Of a stretch of DNA of 20,110 nt, positions 3,188-17,871 are shown piece by piece. Both the position numbers and the translations under genes were made by a program. Each line of letters starts with the position of its first letter. Position 1 is the stretch's first letter. This stretch comes from a virus. Under the pieces are notes generated by a model. It was not told the DNA's origin. It was given only the letters and a program-made list of their open reading frames with translations, and did not search any database. The stretch covers positions 1 through 20,110 of IMG/VR virus record IMGVR_UViG_3300015371_000230; one strand, given 5' to 3'.

Positions 3188-3729
3188 ATGTTCGAACCGC
3201 TTGCCAGGTCGGCCGGCGTGACCCTTTCGAAACTACTTATCACATCGCTTTCGACTAACTTCGACAGGATTTCGTTGATCGCCGGTATGACGTAAGGCCG
3301 CGGCGCCATTTTGCGCCTGACCGTCGTGCCGAGTTCGAGAAACGTTTCGTAACCTGTATCGATCGTAAGTTCGGCCGTCAGTAATAACGGAAACGTGAGA
3401 CCTCGCCATGTGGCGTTCAAAAGATCGCCCGACTTGATCGCTGGCGGTTCGCCAGGCGCCGAGGCGCGATACGTGCCGCCTTTGCCTTTGCCGTCGGGAT
3501 AAACTCGGCCGGTCTTAGGGTCGCGAAACGACCTGATGATCTGCGCCTGAATATCGCGCGCGATGTGCCGAACTAAGGCGTCGACCTGGCCGGCCTCGAT
3601 CGGTTCCATCTTTACGTCAATCTTTTCGACGACGACTAGACTCGCCGAATCGACAAACCTTCGAAACGGGTCATCGATATTAGTAAAGCCAGGTATTAAG
3701 GCGCCGATCGGTTGCGGAATCTTGTTCAT
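3184..3729 (-). CDS. HK97 gp10-like neck/minor tail protein
   Basis: A 181-residue protein with recognisable HK97 gp10 family features: an N-terminal helix (VDALVRHIARDIQAQIIRSF), a central conserved loop with ASAPGEPPAIKSGDLLNATW (about residues 90-110) and a closing YETFLELGTTVRRKMAPRPY motif followed by a C-terminal helix. The family sits at the neck or joins tail completion in siphoviruses. The ATG (3729) overlaps the stop of the large LamG-domain gene as ATGA, so translation is probably coupled. The first 40 residues, with many hydrophobics and Pro, are longer than in the minimal family members. Confidence 0.75.
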   Translation of the reverse strand: MNKIPQPIGALIPGFTNIDDPFRRFVDSASLVVVEKIDVKMEPIEAGQVDALVRHIARDIQAQIIRSFRDPKTGRVYPDGKGKGGTYRASAPGEPPAIKSGDLLNATWRGLTFPLLLTAELTIDTGYETFLELGTTVRRKMAPRPYVIPAINEILSKLVESDVISSFERVTPADLASGSNI

Positions 3730-5906
3730 TTCTGCTCGATCGCCTCACATCGCAGTAAATACACGTGGCCAGGTTTCATGGCGTTCTCGACCTGTAAAAC
3801 CCTATACCTTTGTGTTTCCTGGGTCGTCGCGGCGAATATCTCGACCGTCGCGATCGTCTGAACCATTGCCCATGTCATGTCCATCGAGGTGACCTCGACC
3901 CGCCATTGCTCATCGGCGCCTGACTCGATCGTCGGTATTCGCCTCGCTGACCATCCGTTCTTTAGTTCGATGAGGACGGTCTCGCCTGATCGAGTCATCG
4001 AGTAAAACGTCGCGGTCGCGCCCTTGCCAAATAGAATTTGCTTCTCGCGATCGAGGACGGCCGGATAAAGAATCGACCCTAATGACGAATGGAAACCTTG
4101 AACCAGCTTATTCGCGCCGATGCCGCCGACATAGGCGAGGCCGGTGACCCTTGCGACCTGGCCGCCGGTCGAGGTTCCAGTCGGCATAATGCCGATGCCT
4201 CGAACTAATGCGACCGTCGGCGCGTTCGCCAGGGCGCGCGCCGAGGCGCCCGTCGAGGCGAACCCGATGCCATAGACTGCGGCCGCGCCTTGAACGCCCG
4301 ACATGGCGACCGAGGTCGACCTTTGAGTTATGCCTTTGACGGTCTCGGTCGTCGTCTGAACGCCCGACAAGGCGACGCCGATGCCGGCGCCCGTTGCCGC
4401 CGTGCCGATGCCTCGAACTAACGGCGTTCCCGATACTTTGCTTAGTGGAACCGGCGGCGCCGGCGGCACGTCAAAGATGAGCGGAAACGATCGTGCCGCG
4501 ATATATTCGCCGGCGTTCTTTCGGTATCCTCGCGCGTATAACTCAAGAACCTGGCCGGCCGTTATTTCGGTGTTCCAGACCCTCAGATCGCGAACGCCGC
4601 CATAAAACGTCTCGCCCTCGGTGTTCGCCAGGAACAAACGCGCGCGTGACATTGCCGCTTGCGGCGTCGCGCTTTGATGCTGACCTTCAAGGCGCCCGTT
4701 GAAATATAGCTTTAGCGTCAGGTCGGCCGATAACGTGACCGTAATATGCGCCCATGTGTCCTGGCGCATGATCGAGGTGCTTGGCACATCTGAAACAAGA
4801 TCGTTCGCGGCGCTGGCGAACCTGTGCACCCGAACGATGCCGTCGGGCGCGTCAGATCGCAGTTTAAGGCCGGTATGATAGCCGTAAACGCCCATGTGAA
4901 AGATCGTGCCGTCTATGTAAAAACTTTTCGCCCATAACGAAAAACTCAAAGGTGGCAACGGCACGACATAACCGATGCCTGGATTATTCCAAAGTGCCTC
5001 AAGTTCGAGTGAATAATTAGTAAAGGAACGATTGATGCCGCCGTCGGCGTCCCAACGAAAATACGTGTCGGTAACAGGCGGCACGGTAAAGACGGCGCCA
5101 TTCTGAACGTCGGCGATCTGTTGAGTATAGGTCTCGGTCATCGGTAACGATGCCGTGAGGTTCCGACTTAACGGGTCATCGAGTGCCGGCGACCCTATCC
5201 TCGAACCTGGCAAATAGTCGCGATAGCTATTCGAAAGCAGGGTCGTGATCTTTGCCGACAAGGCCGGAGGGTCGGCCGTCGCAGGCACGGTTCCGTTTGC
5301 CGTTAAATCCGGCAAGGTTCCGGCATTCGACTCAAGGCCGCCGGCCTGTAGCAGTCGCCAGTAACCTAAAATGCTAGACGCCTGAATCGCGTCAGGCGGC
5401 ACGCCGGTCGCTAATTGCGTGACCTCGGCCGACGTTAATGCCGTGTGCCACATGGCAACGTCGGCGACATTGCCGTCAAAGGCGAAAGGCGGATAAATGC
5501 CGGAAACCAAAACGCCGCCGATCGTCAAGTATTTCGGGTCAAGACCTGGAACCGGCGTGACATCGGTTCCGGTCGCCGTTTGCGCCGCATTATCAAGATA
5601 TATCGTTCGCTTTGATGCTGACTCAAAGACCACGACGCCGAGATGCCAGTCGTTCGCGCCGATCGTGCCGACGTTCGATGAGCCGACAAAGGTTAGTGCC
5701 TTGCCAGATGCTGCAGTCGCGCCAGTCGACGCAATGGAGAGATAGTCGGCATCCCATGTCGTAATCGCCTGACCGTAGGTGACGACGATCGCCGACGCGG
5801 CGACTGAATCGGCCTTGAACCTCAAACTTAATGTATAGGGATAAGAGACGGCCGGCGCTGATAGGCTTAAAAAAGAATTACTTGAACCTGTAACATGACG
5901 CGCCAT
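3726..5906 (-). CDS. Large LamG-domain virion protein with head-closure-like C-terminus
   Basis: A 726-residue protein with four visible regions. Residues about 20-170 form a LamG/concanavalin-like domain (WHLGVVVFE strand, then YLDN, then GNVADVAMWHTALTSAEV). Residues about 296-460 form a second one (TWAHITVTLSADLTLKLYFN, then GGVRDLRVWNTEITAGQV). Residues 492-600 hold about five degenerate repeats of the form VxGIGxxxTG. Residues about 605-726 are a compact beta-rich domain ending YRVLQVENAMKPGHVYLLRC, which resembles small head-closure or stopper proteins. LamG domains in phages usually bind carbohydrate, as in tail fibres or capsid decorations. The gene lies between the capsid region and the neck gene rather than among tail fibres. 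I infer a neck- or head-attached adhesin/whisker; function is not proven. Confidence 0.6.
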   Translation of the reverse strand: MARHVTGSSNSFLSLSAPAVSYPYTLSLRFKADSVAASAIVVTYGQAITTWDADYLSIASTGATAASGKALTFVGSSNVGTIGANDWHLGVVVFESASKRTIYLDNAAQTATGTDVTPVPGLDPKYLTIGGVLVSGIYPPFAFDGNVADVAMWHTALTSAEVTQLATGVPPDAIQASSILGYWRLLQAGGLESNAGTLPDLTANGTVPATADPPALSAKITTLLSNSYRDYLPGSRIGSPALDDPLSRNLTASLPMTETYTQQIADVQNGAVFTVPPVTDTYFRWDADGGINRSFTNYSLELEALWNNPGIGYVVPLPPLSFSLWAKSFYIDGTIFHMGVYGYHTGLKLRSDAPDGIVRVHRFASAANDLVSDVPSTSIMRQDTWAHITVTLSADLTLKLYFNGRLEGQHQSATPQAAMSRARLFLANTEGETFYGGVRDLRVWNTEITAGQVLELYARGYRKNAGEYIAARSFPLIFDVPPAPPVPLSKVSGTPLVRGIGTAATGAGIGVALSGVQTTTETVKGITQRSTSVAMSGVQGAAAVYGIGFASTGASARALANAPTVALVRGIGIMPTGTSTGGQVARVTGLAYVGGIGANKLVQGFHSSLGSILYPAVLDREKQILFGKGATATFYSMTRSGETVLIELKNGWSARRIPTIESGADEQWRVEVTSMDMTWAMVQTIATVEIFAATTQETQRYRVLQVENAMKPGHVYLLRCEAIEQK

Positions 5907-13029: not shown

Positions 13030-13118
13030 TCCTTAACCCACTTCCAGTATCGCCAGAGGAACGCGCCGGCAAATAGAAAGACCGTGATAGTCCATGCGAT
13101 GTCGTTCGCGTCGGTCAT
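13026..13118 (-). CDS. 30-aa membrane peptide between terL and downstream genes
   Basis: A short frame with start and stop both in ATGA overlaps (with the terL stop upstream and with the 163-aa gene downstream). The product is MTDANDIAWTITVFLFAGAF followed by LWRYWKWVKE: a short acidic N-terminus, one hydrophobic helix, and an aromatic/basic end, consistent with a single membrane span. The double overlap makes it a convincing translated gene despite its size. No function can be assigned. Confidence 0.55.
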   Translation of the reverse strand: MTDANDIAWTITVFLFAGAFLWRYWKWVKE

Positions 13119-15250
13119 ACTGCGGTAATCATGACGACCTTTTTCGAAAGCATTAAATCTGTGAACCCGTGAACAAGGGCGTCGAGTCGGTTCGGTGATG
13201 CGTCGCCCGGCACCCAACTACACAATTCGTCTTCGAGATCGGGAAAGACGCCGACATGATGGATTTTACAGTTATGAACGAGTATCCCACCGGCGAAAAA
13301 CTCGGGACATCCCTCGACGCGCAGATTATAGACTCTGCGCCTTTGCCAGTTTTCGACGGCGCCAATTCCACCATTTCGCGTTACAGGTCGGTGTACAGAA
13401 TCGAACAGGTTTAGAACATCGGGTTTCGTAGACTCGGCCGCATTGTTCGCATGTTGCGGCGTGCGGTTCCACTCTTTTCCAATGTTCGATGCGTGCGCGT
13501 CGTATCTTAGCGCGCACATTGTCGGTATAGAACCGCGACCGATCGTAATGGCGCTTTGCGTGTTCCGAGGGGGCGATGAGTTCAAGGTTCGCGAGATTGT
13601 TGTTTCCAGGGTCGCCGTCAATGTGATGGATGTGTCGGCCGGCAGGAATGCGACCATTGGCCGCCGCCCAAACTGCGCGATGTAAAAGGCCGGATCGTGC
13701 GTGCCTCGACGCGCGCCAATAGCCGTCATCCTGGCGATAGTAACGTCGGCCGTTAAATTCCACGAACGGTCGTTTAGGTTCGCGCGTTCGCCATCTTTTG
13801 ATCGCAGCACACGATCCGCAGCGGCGATCGCGTTTCCAAACAGGCGCGGCGCATTCGATACACACATATCTTTGTTTTCGTCCCATACGGTGAGTATATC
13901 CGTTTTAGGAACAAGTTCCACGGCTTTAATAAATCCACGTTGGCAAAAGATAGGGTGATCGGCCGTACAATTCAGCGAACCGCCGTCATAGTGAACGACG
14001 ACCGTCTCGCGTTCGCCCGTCTGACCCGCCCAAAGAACACGCCGTAAGCCTTGCCGAGTCCACACTAGATCATCGGGTCGAACCTGTTCGATCGGTACTC
14101 GACCGCCGGCCGTCTCGACCAATTCGCCCTCGGCGATGCATTGTTCGTATAGCGCCGAGATCGGTTCGGCGCGCGTGAATTTACCACGACTTGCATGCAC
14201 GCCGCGATAAGAAACGCGAGGGTCGATCGAGGCGATCGTCTGACGAACCATTTCGCCGCCCTGATTCGTCTCGGCGACAAGGCGATCGGCCTTGAAACGG
14301 TGATAGGCGGCGACCGCCTGGCGACTCCATTCGGCCGGCGTGCCTTGAGTCGACACGTCGTCGAGCAAGTATCCGACGCCGGCATCGTCGACGCCCTGAA
14401 CCGTAATCCCGCACTCGGCGCCGCCGGCCGTGATACTAGGGTCGACCGAGACGACGACTCGCGCCAGGTCAGGAAAGGCGACGACCCGCAGATCGTCGAG
14501 GGTCTTTCGTGTCCACAAGGCGCCGGCAATGTCCTCAAGTATCTCGCCGGCGAGTTCCTGGCGGCCGAGTCGGGTGCCGTCGTATCGATCGTATAACCGG
14601 GCGCGAACGCTTTCATGCAAATGCGGATTGTCGCGAGTCGCGGCGCGAGTCACGACGGTCGAAGGGTCAGCGATGATCGCCTGCAGTCGCTTGCGAGGTT
14701 TCGGCGTCGTCGAAACGATGAGTCGAGGGTTCACGCCGAGGCGTAAGCCGAATTGCATATTGTCAAAGCATTCGTCTAGCTGCCTGGCGGCGGCGAGTTC
14801 CTCGAACCATACAAGGTCATGCTGCGCGCCTCGCAGACGTTCGGCGTCGTCGGGCGTATGCGCGCCGAATAAGACCGCCCTGGCGCCGTTCGGCCATGTG
14901 AGTTCTCCCCATGACCTATTGAACCTGACGCCTCGATTGAATGACAAGATACCGGTCTCGCCCTCGACACATGTTTTCCTGGCGTCGCCGAGAGTCGGCG
15001 CGATGATCGCGATTCGTGCGGTCGGGTTCTTTGAGGCGTAGCGATCGACGTAATAGGCCGCGGCGAATGTCTTGCCGCCGCCTCGACCGCTCATAAGTAA
15101 CCATGTGTGCCAGTCGCCAGGCGGCGGCGTTTGATGAGGCAATAACTGAACGCCGAGGCCGGCGGCGCGTCGGCGCCTTAGTTCGAGTTCAGCTTTCGCT
15201 TTCAATTGCAGTGAGGGTTTCGAGTTCCGAATCTGAAAGGGTCGTGACAT
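13115..15250 (-). CDS. terL: Terminase large subunit interrupted by an intein
   Basis: A 711-residue precursor; removing the 290-residue intein leaves 421 residues, a normal TerL length. The N-terminal ATPase has Walker A SGRGGGKT (residues 54-61) and a Walker B-like DLVWFEE (145-151). The nuclease has VVVSVDP (Asp270), a second acidic site near LLDDVS (297-298), Glu327 in AETNQGG, and after the intein NRLDALVHG (Asp690). The intein lies in the conserved stretch ALYEQ/KIHHVG, so it interrupts the nuclease domain before its last acidic residue and TerL cannot be active until splicing. The enzyme cuts concatemers and pumps DNA through the portal. It overlaps terS by 62 nt. Start ATG lacks a clear ribosome site, suggesting coupling to terS. 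Confidence 0.95.
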   Translation of the reverse strand: MSRPFQIRNSKPSLQLKAKAELELRRRRAAGLGVQLLPHQTPPPGDWHTWLLMSGRGGGKTFAAAYYVDRYASKNPTARIAIIAPTLGDARKTCVEGETGILSFNRGVRFNRSWGELTWPNGARAVLFGAHTPDDAERLRGAQHDLVWFEELAAARQLDECFDNMQFGLRLGVNPRLIVSTTPKPRKRLQAIIADPSTVVTRAATRDNPHLHESVRARLYDRYDGTRLGRQELAGEILEDIAGALWTRKTLDDLRVVAFPDLARVVVSVDPSITAGGAECGITVQGVDDAGVGYLLDDVSTQGTPAEWSRQAVAAYHRFKADRLVAETNQGGEMVRQTIASIDPRVSYRGVHASRGKFTRAEPISALYEQCIAEGELVETAGGRVPIEQVRPDDLVWTRQGLRRVLWAGQTGERETVVVHYDGGSLNCTADHPIFCQRGFIKAVELVPKTDILTVWDENKDMCVSNAPRLFGNAIAAADRVLRSKDGERANLNDRSWNLTADVTIARMTAIGARRGTHDPAFYIAQFGRRPMVAFLPADTSITLTATLETTISRTLNSSPPRNTQSAITIGRGSIPTMCALRYDAHASNIGKEWNRTPQHANNAAESTKPDVLNLFDSVHRPVTRNGGIGAVENWQRRRVYNLRVEGCPEFFAGGILVHNCKIHHVGVFPDLEDELCSWVPGDASPNRLDALVHGFTDLMLSKKVVMITAV
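13271..14140 (-). mobile_element. Intein in TerL (290 residues)
   Basis: The splice boundaries are clear. Block A starts at Cys371 (CIAEGELVETAGG, then VPIEQV). Block B is SLNCTADHPIF with the TxxH motif (Thr429, His432). Block F/G is RVYNLRVEGCPEFFAGGILV ending His659-Asn660, followed by Cys661 as +1 extein residue. This is a class 1 Cys1/Asn/Cys+1 intein. The Hint halves need about residues 371-455 and 638-660. The intervening in-frame translation, residues 456-637, resembles no endonuclease; instead the same DNA encodes an HNH protein in the -1 frame. Intein insertion at ALYEQ is a conserved TerL site, so it would be hard to lose without restoring the gene exactly. Confidence 0.93.
13326..13886 (-). 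CDS. HNH homing endonuclease nested out of frame in the terL intein
   Basis: A 186-residue protein in the -1 frame relative to terL, entirely within the intein. Cys9/12 and Cys23/26 form an N-terminal zinc ribbon. A FVEFNGRRYYRQDDGYW strand pair leads to an HNH_3-type core: LHRAVWAAANG (His69), HIHHIDGDPGNNNLANLELI (His87/88, Asp90, Asn97 region), then APSEHAKRH. A second Cys cluster (Cys146, 149, 157, 164, 168) is followed by a basic tail (NWRRRKLAK). The family cleaves intein- or intron-free alleles to promote homing. ATG at 13886 is the only sensible start because a TAA lies 21 nt upstream; the ribosome site is weak. It begins exactly where the N-terminal Hint half ends and stops inside block F. 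Confidence 0.88.
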   Translation of the reverse strand: MGRKQRYVCIECAAPVWKRDRRCGSCAAIKRWRTREPKRPFVEFNGRRYYRQDDGYWRASRHARSGLLHRAVWAAANGRIPAGRHIHHIDGDPGNNNLANLELIAPSEHAKRHYDRSRFYTDNVRAKIRRARIEHWKRVEPHAATCEQCGRVYETRCSKPVRFCTPTCNAKWWNWRRRKLAKAQSL

Positions 15251-16737: not shown

Positions 16738-17871
16738 TCAGGTCGCCAGGGCGAATAGACCGAGGTTCTTTCGAATCATTTCGCAGTATTCGGGGTTTAG
16801 TTCGATGAGAACCGCGCGGCGGCCGAGTTTAACGGCGACCTCGCCGGTCGTGCCACAACCGCCGAACGGGTCAAGAATAACGCCGTCAGGCGGCGCGCCG
16901 GCCTTAATGCAAAGTTCGACAAGTTTCGTCGGAAACGTCGCGAAATGCGCGTCGCCAAACGGTTCGCCTTGAATTGTCCACACGTCACGCCGATTTCGCA
17001 GATCGCCGGCACGACCTGACGACATTGCCAGGTCATGATTTTGGAATGTGCGAGGAATGCCGGTATCTCGACGGTTTAGTGTGCCGGCGTTCGAGGTTCC
17101 CTTGAGGTCGTCGAATAGTCTCGAGGGTTCGGCGATCGCCTCGGCGTCATAGAAATATCGCGCCGATTTCGTAAGCATAAAAATATATTCGTGCGATCGA
17201 GTGCATCGGTCGGTAACGGATTCCGGCATCGGGTTCGGTTTCGCCCAAATGATATCAGATCGCAGATACCAGCCGCGCTCTTGAAGTGCGAATGCGAGCC
17301 GCCACGGAATACCGCAGAGGTCTTTGGGTTTGATTGAGTCGCCCTTATAACCGCGAATCATCGTCCCATTACAAGAACCTCGGTTGCCCGTCTGTACCTT
17401 CCCGGCGTGGCCCCGCTCAGCCCCGCCCTTACCCGACCCTGCATAGCTATCCCCAATCACAATCCAGCACGTTCCTTGTGGCTTCAGCACACGCCGCACT
17501 TCTTCGAATACTGCTGCCATCTTCTCAATGTACTCAAAGGGCGAAGGCTCAAGACCCATCTGCTGATCTATGCGAGATGCACCACATCGGCCACAAGTGC
17601 CTGCATATGCTTTCGTATCCTGCGCGATCGTTACGTAGTTTGCACCGTGGAAATCTCCATTGATGGGTCGCGTCTCACGTGGCCTTGACGGAACGAGATG
17701 ATTGCACTCATCTGCGCCGCCTTCCCATGTTGCGGTTCCGTAATCACGCAATCCCCAATATGGCGGTGAAGTAATACAGGCGTCGATCGAGTCGGCCGGC
17801 AATGTCGCCAGGGTCGCGAGTGCCTCGCCATTGTAGAGATCGAGAAAAGCATTAGAAATTATTTTAATCAT
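16738..17871 (-). CDS. DNA methyltransferase (N4-cytosine/N6-adenine type) with zinc insert
   Basis: A 377-residue amino-methyltransferase of the beta arrangement: catalytic TSPPYWGLRDYG (motif IV, residues 34-45) near the N-terminus and the S-adenosylmethionine site DPFGGCGTTGEV (from residue 334) near the C-terminus. SPPY favours N4-cytosine but does not exclude N6-adenine. An insert with Cys56, His58 and CGRC (Cys93/96) probably binds zinc, as in related phage enzymes. ATG (17871) overlaps the previous stop as ATGA. No matching restriction enzyme is visible, so it likely protects phage DNA or regulates. DNA between about 17390 and 17720 has different codon use from its flanks. Confidence 0.9.
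   Translation of the reverse strand: MIKIISNAFLDLYNGEALATLATLPADSIDACITSPPYWGLRDYGTATWEGGADECNHLVPSRPRETRPINGDFHGANYVTIAQDTKAYAGTCGRCGASRIDQQMGLEPSPFEYIEKMAAVFEEVRRVLKPQGTCWIVIGDSYAGSGKGGAERGHAGKVQTGNRGSCNGTMIRGYKGDSIKPKDLCGIPWRLAFALQERGWYLRSDIIWAKPNPMPESVTDRCTRSHEYIFMLTKSARYFYDAEAIAEPSRLFDDLKGTSNAGTLNRRDTGIPRTFQNHDLAMSSGRAGDLRNRRDVWTIQGEPFGDAHFATFPTKLVELCIKAGAPPDGVILDPFGGCGTTGEVAVKLGRRAVLIELNPEYCEMIRKNLGLFALAT

Follow-up and report, generated by a model that had tools for sequence, protein, structure and literature searches.

A phage terminase intein overlapped out of frame by a gene for an HNH endonuclease

The terL gene contains an intein and, in another frame, an HNH gene

The stretch of DNA analysed here, called the window, is a virus record of 20,110 bases, the minus strand of which carries a module of terminase, portal and capsid genes. 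The features of main interest lie within the terL gene (Table 1). As an earlier note had read from the sequence, terL is open for 711 codons and its product has the blocks of an intein. The matches to Terminase_6N and Terminase_6C extend to residue 370, and the intein begins at the next residue with Cys371 (Cys1); block B reads T429-A-D-H432, and the intein terminates in HN, with Asn660 as the last residue, followed by Cys. Also borne out was the presence within the intein of an HNH endonuclease gene of 186 codons in the -1 frame, with zinc ribbons, complete from ATG to TAA. It starts where the N-terminal Hint half ends and stops inside block F, within the codons for Tyr641 and Asn642. Elsewhere in the window are two ordinary phage genes, one for an N6/N4 DNA methyltransferase (16738-17871) and one for a large protein that has a LamG-like domain (3726-5906).

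Table 1. Features of the terL locus in the window. A slash in a residue string here and in the text marks the edge of the intein or its insertion point.
Feature	Position	Strand	Evidence
terL, terminase large subunit precursor, 711 aa	13115..15250	-	Terminase_6N 2.4e-20, Terminase_6C 5.3e-12; unbroken across the intein
N-extein, TerL residues 1-370, C-terminal YEQ	14141..15250	-	Colinear with the intein-free terL of L090
Intein, TerL residues 371-660, exactly 870 bp (290 codons)	13271..14140	-	Empty site in L090; Intein_splicing and Hint_2 matches; catalytic residues invariant in 41 relatives
N-terminal Hint half, block A Cys1 and block B T59-x-x-H62	13886..14140	-	AlphaFold pLDDT 96-98
C-terminal Hint half, blocks F and G, ending HN	13271..13390	-	Profile matches and AlphaFold; first ~20 codons double as the HNH C-terminus
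C-extein, begins with Cys+1 (CKIHHVG)	13115..13270	-	Sequence; comparison with intein-free terLs
terL-frame stretch overlapping the HNH gene, predicted unstructured, intein residues about 87-250	13391..13882	-	pLDDT mostly <50, no secondary structure
HNH endonuclease ORF, 186 aa, -1 frame relative to terL, entirely within the intein	13326..13886	-	Pfam HNH_3 2.9e-15, PHROG 15471 9e-25; structure pLDDT 90.1
HNH core HIHHIDGDPGNNNLANLE...H	13548..13634	-	H85, H87, H88, D90, N96, N100, H109 invariant in the family
N-terminal zinc ribbon CxxC..CxxC (C9, C12, C23, C26)	13809..13862	-	Sequence; common to the closest relative, L002
C-terminal zinc ribbon (C146, C149, C164, C168)	13383..13451	-	Invariant in 31 relatives
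HNH stop TAA, last base of Tyr641 and two bases of Asn642, Hint block F (VYNL)	13326..13328	-	Sequence

The residues C1, T59, H62 and N290 were invariant across 41 inteins, and 37 of 38 related inteins matched Pfam Intein_splicing. In the AlphaFold model of the intein, residues 1-80 and 261-290 had a pLDDT of about 97 and formed the strands of a Hint fold; the value fell to about 39-57 for residues ~91-250. Foldseek matched the model to the Spl DnaX, Mtu RecA and gp41-1 mini-inteins (E 1.6e-6 to 1e-5). The structure models were built without three alignment rows from annotated phages. The intact catalytic residues (Cys1, TxxH, HN/Cys+1) and the predicted fold suggest that the TerL precursor contains a Hint mini-intein that splices out in cis. 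In a canonical homing intein, however, the endonuclease is in frame with the splicing domain, whereas here it is in the -1 frame.

The overlapped part of the terL frame is free of stops, as the earlier note had stated, but its estimate that some 182 of these codons encode meaningless peptide was too high. The AlphaFold model gives about 165, as the last ~20 overlapped codons encode a Hint strand (intein residues 253-272), and that stretch therefore yields folded protein in both frames.

The nested protein resembles I-HmuI and probably initiates on its own

The nested protein has the catalytic motif and the zinc ribbons of an HNH homing endonuclease, as judged from the HNH_3 match, the invariant residues and the fold, and its AlphaFold model (pLDDT 90) was I-HmuI-like. 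I-HmuI (PDB 1u3e) is its closest solved relative, with modest scores (sequence profile E 0.0019, Foldseek 6.3e-3) and a similarity limited to about 95 residues. The gene for I-HmuI resides in a group I intron of a phage, whereas the HNH of the window is inside an intein.

Upstream of the nested starts, the mean Shine-Dalgarno energy was -5.20, compared with -2.52 for background ATGs, and 48% of these starts fell in the best tenth. The start in the window has a weak Shine-Dalgarno sequence (-3.3, rank 0.31). Separate initiation of the HNH appears the likeliest mode of translation.

Out-of-frame nesting is the most frequent arrangement in this HNH family

Searches with the HNH as query retrieved 80 relatives in IMG/VR, then more, and six loci in genomes. 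These searches were based on a pattern of the HNH core and are therefore biased towards intact nucleases; the sample reached with terL queries is smaller. The relatives were sorted by means of profiles of the HNH and of either Hint half, and 106 remained after deduplication. In 67 of them, a single unbroken ORF carried both Hint halves, and the HNH was encoded between these in another frame; in six, the HNH was between Hint halves carried on separate ORFs, that is, in a split intein. No Hint was found nearby in another 33, and an in-frame HNH was found in none of the 106. Thus, the arrangement that the earlier note took to be uncommon is the most frequent one found in this family. Its recurrence in independent contigs, at 67 deduplicated loci, also rules out a sequencing error, including the pair of compensating indels that the note had considered. 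At 66 of the 67 loci, the phase of the nested HNH was the same as in the window. The exception (L213:1386-3800), with the HNH in the other phase and a host frame open throughout, is apparently an independent capture.

The hosts of nested HNH genes were nearly all terminases, and within terL the inteins were inserted at YEQ/C, at LEDQL/C, at the nuclease motif NH/C-DA and at a Walker B site. When intein loci were reached with terL rather than HNH queries, the nested HNH was intact in all except two, L293, in which it is cut by the contig end, and L263, which has a different intein, at Walker A, without this HNH. Freely broken HNH frames beside an intact terL, a case raised in the earlier note, were not found at these sites. 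The Walker A intein of L263 (400-1700), in a terL 94% identical to that of L028, has a low-complexity middle with no match to the HNH family of the window, and may harbour a decayed or different nested nuclease.

Several loci had more than one intein. One terL (L056) carries two, at 112-939 and around 2076-2669, each with a nested HNH in the same phase. The core of the first HNH reads VVHHKDEDKSNN, outside the reach of the pattern searches, so the prevalence of the arrangement is underestimated. In L002 (2529-5546), a second TerL intein follows closely after the one at the YEQ site, and the TerLs of L194 and L227 have an extra upstream intein in addition to the intein with the nested HNH. LAGLIDADG_3 was matched by two hosts in the set.

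The six split inteins are in L033, L042, L054, L072, L076 and L245, and the C halves of the last four start with their own Met; in the window, terL is a single ORF. In L072 and L076, the same HNH family is found between the split intein halves of a DnaB-like helicase gene. The annotated TerL of Lactobacillus phage CL2 (L254, 455-2771) terminates in the N-terminal Hint half and is followed by an HNH ORF and by the C-terminal Hint half on another ORF, a layout also found in Brochothrix phage BL3 (L252, 666-2561). These two are apparent split inteins in cultured phages and are not annotated as such.

The terL frame is kept open over the nuclease gene

The number of stops expected in the overlapping frames was obtained by shuffling synonymous codons within each HNH gene, for 40 non-redundant nested genes and 28 unnested relatives. 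The host (terL) frame of the 40 nested genes contained no stop, against 92.8 expected. The same frame in the 28 unnested relatives had 262 stops (273.8 expected), and the other overlapping frame in the nested genes had 679 (694.6 expected). We conclude that stops are specifically kept out of the terL frame where it overlaps the nuclease. For the ORF of the window alone the effect is modest, with a stop-free host frame in 3.6% of the synonymous shuffles (P 0.036). As the nested genes were initially recognised partly by their openness, independent support comes from the location of both Hint halves in the same ORF (67 of 67) and from the finding that the six relatives that have Hint halves as well as stops are split inteins. 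The other phase would require the removal of far more stops, which explains why the phase is shared.

Substitution patterns, the comparison of which had been proposed with the original observation, were then set against each other in both frames. Between the window and L170, identity was 50% in the HNH frame but 19% in both the terL frame and the third frame, which is unused. At the three HNH codon positions, the numbers of substitutions per position were 0.43, 0.31 and 0.70, a pattern repeated in other pairs. By this sequence comparison, substitutions preserve the HNH frame in a purifying pattern. Because identity in the terL frame equals that in the third frame, there is no detectable constraint on the terL-frame peptide beyond the absence of stops, except near its ends. 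The avoidance of stops, the codon-position pattern and the predicted structures together agree with two proposals of the earlier note, that the overlapped intein frame is made to stay open and that splicing and nuclease are assigned to separate frames that overlap.

Intein-free alleles suggest mobility

A precise, in-frame insertion of 870 bp is evident from comparison with L090, which has an intein-free terL, 98% identical in protein, with a clean empty site (YEQ/GKVHHVG, compared with YEQ/intein/CKIHHVG in the window). None of 35 TerLs that lack an intein at the YEQ site has Cys as the +1 residue. Identity to L090 averaged 0.913 over the left flank but was lower beside the insertion site, at 0.80 over the adjacent 30 bases on the left and at 0.77 and 0.67 across the first 60 bases on the right. 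Such divergence is as expected from co-conversion with a diverged donor, but in this one comparison, with few sites, chance or relaxed constraint could also explain it. At other sites, terLs as much as about 95% identical differed in whether they had the nested intein (L028 compared with L258-L262; L018 compared with L274 onwards), and one metagenome sample contained both states (L028, L261). The sporadic distribution and the flank divergence would be indirect signs of homing by the nested HNH.

Free-standing relatives of the HNH adjoin terminase genes in cultured phages, so that it is plausible, as proposed in the earlier note, that a free-standing HNH gene was captured by an intein; the direction of change, however, is not given by the unrooted tree. 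The tree requires at least 10 label changes, of which well-supported branches force three, and nested and free states therefore interconvert. The window, L002 and L170 form a supported clade, all at the YEQ site. A free gene whose product cuts terL close to the insertion site of an intein could be taken up by that intein, a step beyond what has been termed collaborative homing (PMC12724721).

A probable composite mobile element and the alternatives

We consider it quite probable that the locus as a whole is a composite mobile element, formed by a cis-splicing mini-intein and a separately translated HNH homing endonuclease in the -1 frame. Splicing, independent initiation, terL cleavage and homing are steps that we infer. 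The HNH would probably cut intein-free terL near the YEQ site, and repair of the break would copy the whole 870 bp, intein and nuclease together, into the cut gene. As terL is read through the nuclease gene, selection would purge stops in the terL frame and protect only the protein sequence of the HNH. The overlapped terL-frame peptide would then be a disposable linker, lost with the excised intein.

Other readings account for parts of these observations. Phage introns commonly carry HNH ORFs, and the insert could be a group I intron or another RNA element with such an ORF; but the terL frame is open throughout, the Hint residues and fold are intact and no Rfam match was found in the window or in 19 related loci, and we give this reading practically no credence. 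Programmed -1 frameshifting from the N-terminal Hint half, with a Hint-HNH fusion as product and no separate protein, would suit the -1 position of the HNH at 66 of 67 loci. However, the HNH frame is mostly closed by a stop within ten codons 5' of the start, there is no excess of slippery heptamers (present at 13 of 66 loci, with 9.7 expected) and the nested starts show the Shine-Dalgarno enrichment described above, all of which make frameshifting decidedly unlikely. The same enrichment, together with an own start and stop, speaks against a decaying, functionless relic of an in-frame endonuclease that was shifted out by two indels. The relic would accord with canonical inteins, such as SPbeta BnrdE, having the endonuclease in frame; yet no relative is in frame, the phase is the same in 66 of 67 loci, the catalytic and zinc residues are invariant and the HNH frame has a purifying pattern, so that we regard it as very improbable.

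It is also conceivable, if rather improbable, that the nested HNH is a packaging accessory and not a homing endonuclease, placed in terL for co-expression. This reading draws on the position of the free-standing relatives beside terminase genes in cultured phages, on the near restriction of nested hosts to terminases, and on a GVE2-like HNH between terL and portal thought to aid packaging (PMC12724721). HNH proteins encoded beside terminases have been reported to work together with TerL and can have a role in packaging instead of homing. It fits poorly with the sporadic presence of the HNH among terLs up to 95-98% identical and with the nearest intein-free phages, which pack without it. Nor would it lead one to expect several different terL insertion sites, a relationship to I-HmuI or, among the six split-intein relatives, DnaB-like helicase hosts.

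Relation to known systems

Layouts in which an endonuclease gene separates the two halves of a split intein were reportedly described by Dassa in 2009 as 'fractured genes'. The six split relatives have the same layout, with the same HNH family; in contrast, in the window and 66 other loci the host gene is unbroken and the frames overlap.

As in the window, the Hint domain of canonical phage inteins (SPbeta BnrdE; mycobacteriophage TerL inteins, PMC5050341) is inserted in a conserved motif, the protein is one essential to the phage, and the distribution is sporadic. Their endonuclease, however, is in the splicing frame, whereas that of the window is a separate HNH gene in another frame. The BnrdE intein has an in-frame LAGLIDADG, and its other frames are full of stops. 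The possibility that this intein contains yosQ as an out-of-frame HNH was rejected, as yosQ is in the bnrdF intron.

The ShiLan domain is a zinc-finger HNH encoded out of frame in a mycobacteriophage methylase, with the host frame open and a sporadic occurrence (PMC11855218). It shares with the window the out-of-frame HNH in an open host frame, and also the phase (checked on JN020143), and the two HNH sequences are weakly related (1.5e-10). Its authors, however, found no intein or intron around it, whereas the HNH of the window is flanked by Hint halves. Nor did they see a ribosome-binding site for ShiLan (PMC11855218), whereas the nested starts in the family of the window are enriched in Shine-Dalgarno sequences.

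For overlapping frames, the same paper cites a 2025 preprint by Gosselin, Arsenault and Gogarten, 'Actinobacteriophage Inteins: ... Non-Canonical Architecture' (doi 10.1101/2025.01.02.630785), as well as Gorbalenya 1998, 'Non-canonical inteins'. Going by these citations, both works may describe similar inteins, and priority is uncertain. The chances seem to us about even that the loci belong to a large class of dual-coding phage inteins that had not been described before. In such a class, a separate endonuclease gene overlaps the splicing domain out of frame, the phase depends on which overlapping frame of the HNH genes can be cleared of stops, and the pairing of HNH and intein has been repeatedly resolved as an overlap, a split intein or a free gene. 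Splicing and homing would be divided between two proteins from one stretch of DNA, each mutable in the silent frame of the other, so that their contributions could be cleanly told apart. The independent loci number in the dozens and, with split and free-standing relatives to serve as controls, would also amount to a replicated natural experiment for overlapping genes, one in which one of the frames has only to stay open.

Automatic annotation overlooks the nested nuclease: in the deposited genomes that carry it (Tetrasphaera TJE1, Rhodobacteraceae MD07 and Acinetobacter Highwayman), only terL is annotated. Terminase family profiles, for their part, appear to contain the junk linker. The terminase profile PHROG phrog_30251 was matched by 47 of 57 hosts; its match in the window covers residues 369-443, which is the intein, and the profile thus seems to contain intein sequence.
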